Source: Gammaproteobacteria bacterium
GTDB taxonomy: Bacteria; Pseudomonadota; Gammaproteobacteria; Steroidobacterales; GCA-2729495
Assembly (NCBI GenBank): GCA_030426355.1
Contig: JAUHYQ010000004.1
Location: forward strand, 310,001-374,000
DNA length: 64,000 nt
Reading direction: 5' to 3'
Shown here: piece after piece, positions 35,185 through 39,130 of the stretch
Layout: each line of letters begins with the position of its first letter
Numbering within the stretch: position 1 is the first letter of the stretch
Notes under the pieces: model-generated
The model's database searches: none
The model's input: the letters and a program-made list of their open reading frames with translations, nothing else
What the model was told of the DNA's origin: nothing
Program-made: the position numbers and the translations under genes

Positions 35185-35508
35185 ATGGAACACAATCGAC
35201 TGCTGTTGCAATTAGAGCAGACTCGTAAAGAAATCAACCGGAAAACAATTAACCCGGAGATTAAGACACTCGCACTTTCGGACATCAAACCTATTGTTGA
35301 GTTGGTTGCGGTGGCCCGGGCTGAGTACGTTGCCGAGCTCTTTTCGCTGGCGACAGCCAGCAAAGGCGCAAAGATGACGGGAAATATCTCCAGGTTACGC
35401 GAACTGCGTGAGACATTTGAGGAGCTTGTTGCCGCAGCGAATGCGCTGGAAACTATGATTAAGCGCGGTTATGTGGATGTCGCAGGCTCGCTCGCCGGCG
35501 ACGTTTGA
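35185..35508 (+). CDS. Small helical protein of unknown function
   Basis: A 107-residue, apparently all-helical protein (LLLQLEQTRKEINRKTINPE, IVELVAVARAEYVAELFSLA, LRELRETFEELVAAANALET). An AGGAGA site precedes the ATG. No family is recognised. It is the last gene before the left copy of the tRNA-Arg repeat and probably belongs with the oxygenase gene upstream. Confidence 0.65.
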   Translation: MEHNRLLLQLEQTRKEINRKTINPEIKTLALSDIKPIVELVAVARAEYVAELFSLATASKGAKMTGNISRLRELRETFEELVAAANALETMIKRGYVDVAGSLAGDV

Positions 35509-35555: not shown

Positions 35556-35605
35556 GTGGTGCCCCGACCACGATTCGAACGTGGGACCTTCCGCTTAGGA
35601 GGCGG
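35556..35605 (-). repeat. Left 50-bp direct repeat: 3' part of tRNA-Arg (att-like)
   Basis: These 50 bases are identical to 39053-39102, covering the encoded CCA end, T arm, variable loop, anticodon loop and 3' half of the anticodon stem of tRNA-Arg(CCT). The D arm and 5' half are absent here, so this is not a functional tRNA. It lies downstream of the intact tRNA 3' end, exactly where an integrase would leave a displaced tRNA tail. Confidence 0.9.
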
Positions 35606-38600
35606 GGATTTTGCGCACGAAGCATTTGCCCCGCTTAGGTTTTGGATATGGGAACTCGATTTGCAACGAATATGCAATTGTATTGAGCGGCAGCCACTTT
35701 GCCATCTGCGTGAAGACCAGCTAATTTGAAATAATAGCTCGCTCACCGCTATCCAGATCAATAACCCAAAGCAGTTCTTCATGGCTATCCGTTATGAACG
35801 CCCGGTTATTATCCGCATCAAGAGCAAAACCGGTTGGCCAAAAACCGTCAGCTGCTCGCTGACTTCCGCGTACTAACTCTTCGATACTATCTGTTGATGG
35901 AATATATCTGTCTATGTCACCAGAATTGATAAGAGCAATCTCGCTTTCAGGATCTATAGTGATGTCACTGATACGCTGAAAGTTTCGAACTATACTGCGT
36001 TCCAACGAATCCATATCCACCGCAACCAGCGCACGCAGCCCAACATCCGCTACCAGAATACGATTGCGGGCCGCATCAACGGCAACCTCTCTAGGTTCCA
36101 AAAATGCAGGGCTCTCGCCGGTCGTGGTGATAACTCCAGAAGGCCCACTGAAATTCAACTCCACTATCGCCGGGCTATCCGGGGAAGTATATAAAGCCCG
36201 GTCGTTGGGTGAATCTACAACAATACCGCGCCTGTCATTGGAGGGATTAGGACTTACTGGTCCGAGACTGGCGACGACTGTTCTGCCTCCCGAGTCTAAA
36301 TTAACCGCCAGAATCCGCTTCAATCCTTCATCAACGACGAGCAATCTATTGTTGGGCTTATCAAGTGCCAAACCCACAGGTGTGTCAAAACTATTTACCT
36401 CATCAGGTTTCGCAGGCCCTGACAGCTCAAATCTGTCACGTGTCTCGAAATCGAAGCCCAATATAGCCTTAAGGCGAAGGTCGATCATATATGCCCGGTT
36501 CGCCATTTTGTCGAATACGATGTCTGTGGGCGAAACAAAGAGATTCTTTGCGCTATGTGCCAGGCCTTCCGAAAAGTGACTGCGCTTACCTCTATCAAGA
36601 TCGACCGCGAATAACGGATCTTTTTTATTACCTACCAGCAAACGATTCCCTGTAATGTCCAGAACTGCTCCACGACCCACTGCAAGTGGCGTACCTGAAA
36701 ATCGGTAATCGGCATGAGGGTTTCGGGCCGGCGGCCTTGACAAAATAGTTCGTCCACCAGTGTCCAAATCGACGGCAATTATCTGATCATGAAATTCTTC
36801 TGCCACCAAAACCCGATTGGAGTCGGTATCCAGCACCAGCGATCTCGGGGCACCAAAAGGGTTAAAACTCGGCTCTTTGGCATTGGAAAAAATGGTGCGA
36901 ATTCCCGTATCAAGATCCATTGCAATAATTGCTTGCTTGCCACTATCCAGAACCAGTGCGCGATTGTTGGCGCCATCAATCACGATGTCTTGAACGGTAA
37001 AAAACAGATTGGCGCCATCTGGGAACGTATTACTCGCAATCAAGGTTTCGAGCCCACTGGTCAGATCAATGCCAAGCAGCTCCCTGCTTTCGCGGTTCCA
37101 TGCCAGCAGCCGATTGTTGGTCGCATCCACGGCAATTGCTGCTTGATCAGAAGGCGTTCCGGCGATACGTGGCAAAGCAGTAGAAAAAATCGTGCGCGCG
37201 CCGGTCGAAAGATCGACAGCAACAATCGCACCAATACCGTTATCTGTTACAAGCGCTCGATTGTTAGCAACATCTATTGCAATCATTTCTGGATATTCGA
37301 ACGAGTTCTCCGCACTGGGGATTGTTTCACTGGACAAAACCGTCCTGACACCCGTCGCAAGGTCGACAGCTACGATTCGACGTCCAGCCGCATCGACAAC
37401 AAGTAGTCGACTATTAATGTCGTCCAGAGCGAGGTCTCTTGTGTAGTCGATCGCCACTCCCCGTTCGACTTCCAGAGACGCCGCATTAACATAGGTATTG
37501 TTGTGCTCATCGACTGTTTCTACTGCGAGTTCGTTCCTGCCAGGCTGCAATGGCACGACTGCACGCCAATGCCTGAAACCATCAGTCGTCGAAGCATCAA
37601 TCCCTGACACACGTAGGTTATTTATTTCTTGTGGATCAGTAGTGGTTCCTGCAACAAGCACCGAATCCTTGTAAACAAGGCTAACAGCACCTGGGAATTG
37701 AATATGTACCGCCGGCGCTGCCGACGTGTTTGAGCGTCGAATAGTTAACGTATCAATAGAGTCTATAGACTGATAATCACGTATCTTAATGACTGTCCCT
37801 GTGGCGCCCTGTGCCAAAGCAGCATACTCAAAAATGTTATTACCGCTGTAATCGGGCACCACCGCGAGAGATTCGGCATTCCATACCGCGCCAATAACCA
37901 GCTTGTCTGATACCTTGGCGCCATTGTCTACGCGACGTATCCGGATAATACTGTTGCCGCCAGCCCTTTTGCCCAACACAAGCAGACCCGGGTCATCGGC
38001 ATTGCCATCAGCATTGGCGTCTTTTACCACAGCCAAATCTGCGGTGGCGACAGAAGGGCCGAAGAAAAAAATCCCGGATCTGGTGCCGTCCGAAATTCGC
38101 CTCAGCTCGACTTTGCTTTTGCCGGAGCTTGACTCGGTACCCAGCACTGCCAGATAGGCAACACCAGACGATACAACTCCGCTGACCGCCTTTACCGTCC
38201 AGCTAGGGGTGAAGAACGCCCATTTGCCGATTAAACTGCCATCGCCAATGGCGCGCAATTCGACCATATTACGCCCGCTACTTTTATTTGCGGCCAGCAC
38301 AGCGATCGCGGCATCCTCGGTATTCCCATCACCATTGGGGTCGTCATGGACTGATACGGCGACTGCCGTCCAGTTCTTACTGAAAAAAGCGATACTGGAA
38401 TCAACCATTTCACCAGTCGTTGCATACCTTAGCTGCACCTTAATCTGACCCGTGACAATAGATGTAGCCAGCGCAACCAGCGCCGGATCACCGATAGTAT
38501 TGTCACGATTTCCGTCGGCGTACGCAGCATGATCATTTACCGTCCAGCTGGCATTAAAGAAAGCTAGAGAGCGAAGCGGAGCGCCGTCCTGGCCGGAGAG

Positions 38601-39052
38601 AACAACGATAGTGTTGGTTTCCGTCGCATGTGCGGCGGAGAAATCCGGAATCGAGTCGCCGGAAACATCAGAAAACCCGCTAAGCGTGGCAAATGCGGGT
38701 GAGTCTACAATTAGACTGGATGCGGCCAATAGCGCCACTAGACCATAAAATCTCATCGAATCCCCAACTCTGATTATTCGCATATAAAGCGGTTTAGGTT
38801 ACTTTTAAAACTGAGTATATCTTTCTCCTACTAGCGATTGAAAAAATATGAAGGCTGTATTGGAACATTATGGAAAACATTATATTCCGCCCGCTTTCTG
38901 TTTTGCCATTTAGGACACTCCGCCTTTTCGATGCGATGAAAATTTGCACCGCATTTGAAACCCAAATGTGAGAAATTGATGCAAATACGTCAAGAAGGCG
39001 GAAATTAGCGGAAACAGGAGTTACAGCTTTTTACTTGTAATTATTATTAAAA
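35606..39052. mobile_element. Putative tRNA-Arg-integrated island (3.45 kb) without integrase
   Basis: The segment between the two 50-bp tRNA-Arg repeats carries one large gene (35721-38756) and A/T-richer flanks. The geometry fits integration at the tRNA 3' end: intact tRNA at one side, tRNA tail at the other. No integrase, excisionase or phage gene is seen, so it is a remnant, a satellite moved in trans, or a product of recombination between repeated tRNA sequences. Confidence 0.6.
35721..38756 (-). CDS. Large exported beta-propeller (NHL-like repeat) protein
   Basis: A 1011-residue protein. ATG 38756 is chosen: GGGGAT precedes it and it begins a signal peptide (MRFYGLVALLAASSLIVDSP). Residues about 30-360 hold FG-GAP/VCBS-like repeats of about 55-60 residues, many with FF-SWTVxxVA and DxNxDGNxDD. 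A bacterial-Ig-like domain follows (about 365-440). From about 445 to the end there are 12 repeats of about 45-50 residues, each with a core like ALDxxNNRLLVVDxxxxxI and AVDLxTGxRTxxS, forming one or two propellers. It likely sits on the surface or in the periplasm and binds ligands. The gene looks lower in GC than its neighbours and lies inside the tRNA-bounded segment. Confidence 0.8.
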   Translation of the reverse strand: MRFYGLVALLAASSLIVDSPAFATLSGFSDVSGDSIPDFSAAHATETNTIVVLSGQDGAPLRSLAFFNASWTVNDHAAYADGNRDNTIGDPALVALATSIVTGQIKVQLRYATTGEMVDSSIAFFSKNWTAVAVSVHDDPNGDGNTEDAAIAVLAANKSSGRNMVELRAIGDGSLIGKWAFFTPSWTVKAVSGVVSSGVAYLAVLGTESSSGKSKVELRRISDGTRSGIFFFGPSVATADLAVVKDANADGNADDPGLLVLGKRAGGNSIIRIRRVDNGAKVSDKLVIGAVWNAESLAVVPDYSGNNIFEYAALAQGATGTVIKIRDYQSIDSIDTLTIRRSNTSAAPAVHIQFPGAVSLVYKDSVLVAGTTTDPQEINNLRVSGIDASTTDGFRHWRAVVPLQPGRNELAVETVDEHNNTYVNAASLEVERGVAIDYTRDLALDDINSRLLVVDAAGRRIVAVDLATGVRTVLSSETIPSAENSFEYPEMIAIDVANNRALVTDNGIGAIVAVDLSTGARTIFSTALPRIAGTPSDQAAIAVDATNNRLLAWNRESRELLGIDLTSGLETLIASNTFPDGANLFFTVQDIVIDGANNRALVLDSGKQAIIAMDLDTGIRTIFSNAKEPSFNPFGAPRSLVLDTDSNRVLVAEEFHDQIIAVDLDTGGRTILSRPPARNPHADYRFSGTPLAVGRGAVLDITGNRLLVGNKKDPLFAVDLDRGKRSHFSEGLAHSAKNLFVSPTDIVFDKMANRAYMIDLRLKAILGFDFETRDRFELSGPAKPDEVNSFDTPVGLALDKPNNRLLVVDEGLKRILAVNLDSGGRTVVASLGPVSPNPSNDRRGIVVDSPNDRALYTSPDSPAIVELNFSGPSGVITTTGESPAFLEPREVAVDAARNRILVADVGLRALVAVDMDSLERSIVRNFQRISDITIDPESEIALINSGDIDRYIPSTDSIEELVRGSQRAADGFWPTGFALDADNNRAFITDSHEELLWVIDLDSGERAIISN

Positions 39053-39053
39053 G
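38757..39053. other. A/T-rich intergenic stretch of the island
   Basis: No gene is supported here. The stretch is visibly A/T-richer than the surrounding genome, and contains a direct repeat AACATTAT (twice within 38871-38895) and a small hairpin CATTTG (38952-38957)/CAAATG (38963-38968). It should hold the promoter of the beta-propeller gene and forms the tRNA-side end of the island. Confidence 0.5.
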
Positions 39054-39102
39054 TGGTGCCCCGACCACGATTCGAACGTGGGACCTTCCGCTTAGGAGGC
39101 GG
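39053..39102 (-). repeat. Right 50-bp direct repeat within intact tRNA-Arg
   Basis: Exact copy of 35556-35605, starting one base outside the tRNA CCA end and stopping in the 5' strand of the anticodon stem. Identity breaks at 39103 (A) versus 35606 (G). Confidence 0.9.
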
Positions 39103-39130
39103 ATGCTCTATCCATCTGAGCTACCGGGGC
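39054..39130 (-). tRNA. tRNA-Arg(CCT)
   Basis: A complete 77-nt tRNA on the minus strand: acceptor GCCCCGG, D arm AGCTCAGATGGATAGAGC, anticodon loop CTCCTAA (anticodon CCT), T loop TTCGAAT, encoded CCA. Its 3' part is duplicated at 35556-35605. Confidence 0.97.

Follow-up and report, generated by a model that had tools for sequence, protein, structure and literature searches.

Islands integrated in tRNA genes are recognised in the Islander search by the signature of a tRNA fragment; in the account given in PMC4383910, the anticodon-centred class comprises 2083 of 3919 islands, and candidates without an integrase open reading frame (ORF) are rejected. Cis-mobilizable elements (CIMEs), as characterised in PMC5704250, have lost the genes for integration and transfer and retain both attachment sites, attL and attR. 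At ssrA, many tandem repeats are described in PMC3146451, and sixteen of the islands at that site have the integration module; since this module is a serine recombinase (PMC3146451), the ssrA case involves a different enzyme. The locus described here is a 3447-bp interval bracketed by a complete tRNA-Arg(CCT) gene and a displaced copy of its 3' half, in a 64,000-nucleotide stretch (hereafter, the window) of the genome of a Gammaproteobacteria bacterium (genome G000: assembly GCA_030426355.1, contig JAUHYQ010000004.1, positions 310,001 to 374,000). It is most probably a CIME-like genomic island from which the integrase has been deleted and which holds one gene, for a predicted secreted beta-propeller protein. 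The repeat and the interval consist of the following features (window coordinates):

39054-39130, minus strand: complete tRNA-Arg(CCT), the single one called by ARAGORN, in agreement with Rfam RF00005; putative integration target.
39053-39102, minus strand: att core copy within the complete tRNA (attL side), 50/50 identical to 35556-35605.
35556-35605, minus strand: displaced tRNA 3' tail (attR side), 50 bp, 0 mismatches, from the identity and a genome-wide count.
35606-39052, no strand: island between the repeats, 3447 bp, guanine + cytosine (GC) content 49.3%, from composition analysis.

Alignment and ARAGORN confirmed the starting point of an earlier, sequence-only reading of the window, which had reported an exact 50-bp repeat running from the CCA end through the anticodon stem of tRNA-Arg(CCT). 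In pairwise comparison, extension of the repeat by 1 nt on either side gave a mismatch; it spans positions 29-77 of the tRNA plus one base. An exact 50-bp match of this kind excludes chance. The core was present in exactly two copies in the whole G000 genome (2.82 Mb, 11 contigs, up to 3 mismatches allowed), and the reversed control in none. Along the tRNA, the complete gene is followed by the 3447 bp, the tRNA 3' half and then the chromosome, which is the order left by tRNA-gene integration, and the tail lies on the correct side, as had been stated. The 3' half of the complete tRNA would have come from the element, and attL and attR are both kept, as sequence. The perfect match of the tail, now outside any gene, to the tRNA would be expected if insertion was recent or if gene conversion followed. 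Compared with the tRNA 3' halves of genus relatives, it is identical to that of G003 and differs at 2/49 positions from those of G001 and G004 and at 3/49 from that of G002.

The partial copy at 35556-35605 gave no ARAGORN tRNA call and no Rfam match at E <= 0.1. That such islands are rarely noted because the partial tRNA is unannotated, as had been supposed, is part of the reason; the Islander search, as set out in PMC4383910, also drops candidates without an integrase ORF, so that integrase-free islands go uncounted in surveys of this type.

The island DNA is compositionally foreign. Its GC content was compared with a background of 55.8 +/- 1.6% and its 4-mer distance was 0.273, versus 0.172 +/- 0.022; none of the 278 background windows (overlapping, of equal length, taken from the window and from three further G000 stretches) was as low in GC or as far in 4-mer use. 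The GC and k-mer profile, which had been named as a check on integration, thus sets the interval apart. At third codon positions, the GC fraction of the propeller gene was 0.473, against 0.54-0.66 in 11 neighbour genes.

Like the Islander-type islands of PMC4383910, the locus combines a complete tRNA, a displaced 3' fragment in the right order and orientation and an anticodon-type att site with foreign DNA between the repeats, over a length of more than 2 kb. It differs in having no integrase ORF, which the search as described there demands, and would be rejected. Because no tyrosine integrase gene lies inside it, only a start-codon remnant, it is filed as a decayed remnant and not as an intact island. 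With the CIMEs of PMC5704250 it shares both att repeats and, judging from the start remnant, probably also the loss of the integration gene; the label CIME-like is used in place of CIME, since a conjugative or mobilizable ancestor would be no more than a possibility. The island is a small, well-marked case of an already known kind.

In classical tRNA insertion, the DNA directly after the restored tRNA is element DNA. The tRNA 3' flanks were compared across 24 tRNA-Arg(CCT) loci of relatives. When the 153-bp flank of the window was searched against the relatives' loci with blastn, the only match outside G000 was to the genus relative G002 (80 bp, 84%, E 1.6e-18). Two features result from this comparison:

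38938-39017, minus strand: element-end block, putative attP arm or integrase upstream region; 84% over 80 bp to G002 DNA ahead of an integrase remnant at the same tRNA.
38880-38909, minus strand: putative integrase start remnant consisting of ATG, nine codons and a stop, from the alignment to G002.

The flank alignment of the window and G002 scored 100, compared with a maximum of 31 in 1000 shuffles and with 14-19 for six other tRNA flanks. It reaches the same ATG (38909) and ends about 14 nt past its A. In G002 the block leads to this ATG and to a 72-codon frame, the truncated N-terminus of an integrase; the distance from the integrase start to the tRNA is about 144 bp in the window and 133 bp in G002. 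The 72-residue frame matched six further genomes of 296 in the order (E <= 0.001), each time at the N-terminal end of a protein that combines Arm-DNA-bind_3 and Phage_integrase domains (three of the six were aligned). The integrase-upstream block and the start codon persist at 38880-39017 in common with G002, and because they are shared with its integrase remnant, we infer that an integrase of this type once started here and was then deleted. The sequence-only reading had left it at an element that had lost, or never had, its integrase; the shared block and start codon lean towards loss. A tblastn search of the island with the G028 integrase introduced below, the only one tried, gave nothing meaningful; the start remnant, being too short for a protein search, was missed by it.

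G000 and G002 each have one copy of the 37-bp core of the block, and the rest of the 40 family genomes have none. Among 396 genomes of the order, the block matched beyond G000 and G002 only 19 AT-rich bp in G125, in a locus with no tRNA, which is taken as chance. In genome_contigs it matched one record, JAUIEY010000005.1 (a Gammaproteobacteria metagenome-assembled genome; this may be contig C75 of G002), and among viral contigs none; the G002 remnant had no match in plasmids, phages or viral contigs.

The G002 locus (L058) resembles the island in the end block, in the position of the integrase start and in cargo predicted, by reading, to be secreted. It differs in keeping 72 integrase codons, in carrying PEP-CTERM-type genes in place of the propeller gene and in having no tail in the 7.6 kb examined. 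Adjoining its integrase remnant at the tRNA-Arg, at L058 10600-13512, four genes read as PEP-CTERM-type stand in a row; two were tested with Pfam, one giving a PEP-CTERM match just below the cut-off and one no match.

The tRNA core (up to 3 mismatches) was found in 24 of the 40 family genomes, G000 included; the others may differ more or be incomplete. Proteins matching PF00589 were searched in the 23 other family genomes and in G040, and their positions were compared with that of the tRNA. An integrase lies directly 3' of tRNA-Arg(CCT) in three genomes, and all three genes are open: a 384-residue integrase in G028, with a 50-bp tail 9.1 kb away; a 356-residue one in G006, 63% identical to that of G028, with a 45-bp tail 11.6 kb away; and a 360-residue one in G013, 65% identical to that of G028. 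The stops in the integrase regions of G006 and G013 are located either ahead of the start codon or where the gene ends naturally. Against viral contigs, the G028 integrase matched only four distant loci, at 30%. The G028 element (L068, 9.1 kb) is like the island in its tRNA, in the crossover region in the anticodon loop and in the 50-bp tail. It differs by its open integrase gene, which has no match to the window island, by several small genes, most of them without a Pfam match, and by having no propeller gene. These integrase-bearing relatives at the same tRNA, the foreign composition and the end block uphold the view of the interval as an integrated element without an integrase.

For the tail search, longer stretches of 16 family relatives and of G040 were used; the other seven had short loci only, and several stretches stop at contig ends. 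In G014 a worn 35-bp tail (89%) was found 16 kb from the tRNA (contig C1, 1786219-1802465; L069/L115) with no PF00589 match between them, possibly a second, larger integrase-free island at this tRNA. In G040 the tRNA-Arg and a tail are on separate contigs (C12 and C17; L070/L106), with the contig gap between them and no PF00589 match on either. G013 has two complete tRNA-Arg(CCT) genes, each near integrase sequence (L074 on contig C86, L075 on contig C96); on C96 another integrase ORF, shorter than the open 360-residue integrase gene, comes after it. In this family tRNA-Arg(CCT) is a recurrent integration site, at which several states stand side by side: an open integrase (G006, G013, G028), a 72-codon stump (G002), a start codon only (the window), and no integrase with a worn tail (G014).

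A bare repeat would by itself also permit copying of the tRNA 3' half by an event without integrase, such as a segmental or slippage duplication. This is extremely improbable here: the copy stops in the anticodon stem, anticodon-centred attP sites being those of the large class counted in PMC4383910; tails of the same tRNA are present in four other genomes, with similar ends in G006, G028 and G040 and a shorter, worn one in G014; three of these four (G006, G028, G014) share a contig with the tRNA, in the same order; and a duplication leaves the integrase start remnant unexplained.

G000 has four PF00589 matches, none of them within the window. By sequence reading, two of these proteins look XerC/XerD-like and one integron-type. 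The fourth, on contig C5, was considered as the actor and rejected: it belongs to an unrelated DUF3987/Toprim element that lacks the 50-bp core, and the 19.5 kb examined there contain no tRNA.

The open integrases of the three family genomes could have served in trans, and this bears on a different history, in which an island already free of an integrase, made up of att sites, one cargo gene and the upstream block with its start codon, was brought in by the integrase of another element. It would then be a minimal non-autonomous tRNA element with a single surface-protein gene, mobilised by the tRNA-Arg(CCT)-targeting integrases of the family, a doubtful but conceivable origin. The tail is perfect (0/50 mismatches) even though only the start of the integrase is left, no other integrase piece was detected with the G028 protein, and the donor need not be of the same species, since the tail is also identical to the tRNA 3' half of G003. 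However, the same observations follow from a deletion inside the island once it had inserted, the search for a second copy was negative (full-length gene matches in 0 of 59 other genomes searched), and none of the four G000 matches could be tied to tRNA-Arg(CCT), so that arrival without an integrase is unlikely.

The cargo of the integrase-deleted island is the following gene:

35721-38783, minus strand: sole long gene of the island; its 1020-residue product, predicted to be secreted, comprises two beta-propeller regions plus a linker, from ORF, Pfam, AlphaFold2 and Foldseek analysis.

This ORF, of 1020 codons, is the only long one within the island, and with its two propeller regions it agrees with the description of an island carrying only a large beta-propeller gene. 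The signal peptide was read by eye, and a later in-frame ATG ahead of it may be the true start. The protein matches NHL and SGL repeats, and its linker resembles Glucodextranase domain B, below the Pfam cut-off. The AlphaFold2 model (mean predicted local distance difference test score 75, predicted template modelling score 0.43, 11 sequences) has N-terminal beta sheets (about residues 30-335), then the linker domain and, at 448-1019, roughly eleven more blades of four strands each (counted by eye). In Foldseek, the top matches in the PDB were LRP-type propeller chains, with template modelling (TM) scores of 0.12-0.21 of the query among the 50 matches listed; as these whole-chain TM-scores are low, Foldseek was used for the fold type only. 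The protein may act in extracellular binding or as a scaffold. It had no named relatives in genome_contigs, a collection that possibly does not include the window's own genome. Its N-terminal module is represented by relatives at three further loci of G000, with 36-40% identity across some 310 residues; one contains a stop, and two are ORFs with PEP-CTERM-type genes nearby, by reading.

These module relatives, and the turnover of the DNA 3' of this tRNA within the genus, would suit a tail that is the scar of a different element, with the propeller gene native or separately arrived between the tRNA and the scar. Such an origin is very improbable, since the interval as a whole is foreign in composition and, besides the propeller gene, contains the element-end block towards its tRNA side.

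Several observations weigh against an integrase-deleted island. The propeller's N-terminal module has the relatives elsewhere in G000, so part of the propeller family is native. The end block is seen in only one other of the 40 family genomes, and as the G125 match is taken as chance, no intact version of this particular integrase has been seen; Pfam gave no direct match on the 72 residues of G002 alone. Repeated short arm motifs at the two island ends showed no excess over shuffles, and the G002 locus had no tail in the 7.6 kb examined. Each of the five genus members has different DNA 3' of the tRNA, and in none of the relatives examined is the sequence beyond the tail contiguous with the tRNA, so that the empty site named as a check in the sequence-only reading was not found.

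By sequence reading, the tRNA is followed in G003 by a HicB-like gene and then YebC, in G001 by PEP-like and HicB-like genes, and in G002 by PEP-CTERM-type genes and a glycosyltransferase; in G004 it is followed by an M48 peptidase (Pfam) and then a 107-residue gene. Considered as the ancestral gene of the site, this M48 peptidase is doubtful in that role, its best match in G000 being 35%. The side upstream of the tRNA (His-phosphatase, HupE, UbiD) is largely common to the genus, and because the 3' DNA differs in every member, the site is a turnover hot spot. Two patterns named beforehand as contrary to an insertion, the propeller gene at this place without a tail and a tail present irrespective of the gene, were not seen: the propeller gene was at the site in 0 of the 4 genus relatives G001-G004 (G002 had partial matches only, on other contigs), and a tail in 0 of 4 within the 4.5-10 kb examined 3' of the tRNA.

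For the integrase-deleted island, the following history is proposed. A tyrosine-integrase element would have inserted into tRNA-Arg(CCT) at the anticodon region, completing the gene with a 3' half brought by the element and displacing that of the host, which became the tail at 35556-35605. The start of the element's integrase gene would have been some 144 bp past the tRNA, a position similar to that in G002. A deletion from just past the start codon would then have removed the integrase and joined the attP arm or upstream block to the region upstream of the propeller gene, which may have been carried by the element or added later. The island would now be fixed, barring an integrase of matching specificity supplied in trans; the two core copies remain without a mismatch. 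An integrated element can thus shrink far with its end points still readable, and the repeat, the upstream block and the start codon suffice to argue for integration.

Beyond the tail, one further gene was characterised:

35185-35508, plus strand: 107-residue gene of the flank beyond the tail, with homologs in 5/39 other family genomes, one of which (G004) is also near tRNA-Arg.

An alignment of the tail-side flank with the G004 tRNA flank (score 31, reached in 1 of 2000 shuffles, the best of seven tail-side comparisons) falls inside this gene and was not used as evidence.

At 39053-39068 (minus strand), a terminator-like stem and T-run built with element DNA follow the complete tRNA, and a GC-rich stretch follows the tail. 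Rfam RF04354 (plastid ycf2) matches the tRNA in antisense (39056-39130, plus strand) below the gathering score, likely because of a tRNA artefact in the model. Elsewhere in G000, the integron-type integrase, so assigned by reading, is near the end of contig C3 (L025, 1462-2457). The genus relatives G001-G004 have two PF00589 matches each, with no clear counterpart of the contig C5 integrase. The latter is encoded together with YfbU-domain, DUF3987 and Toprim proteins at 8582-15466 of L101 (contig C5, 462000-481500), which looks like a small integrated element or satellite.

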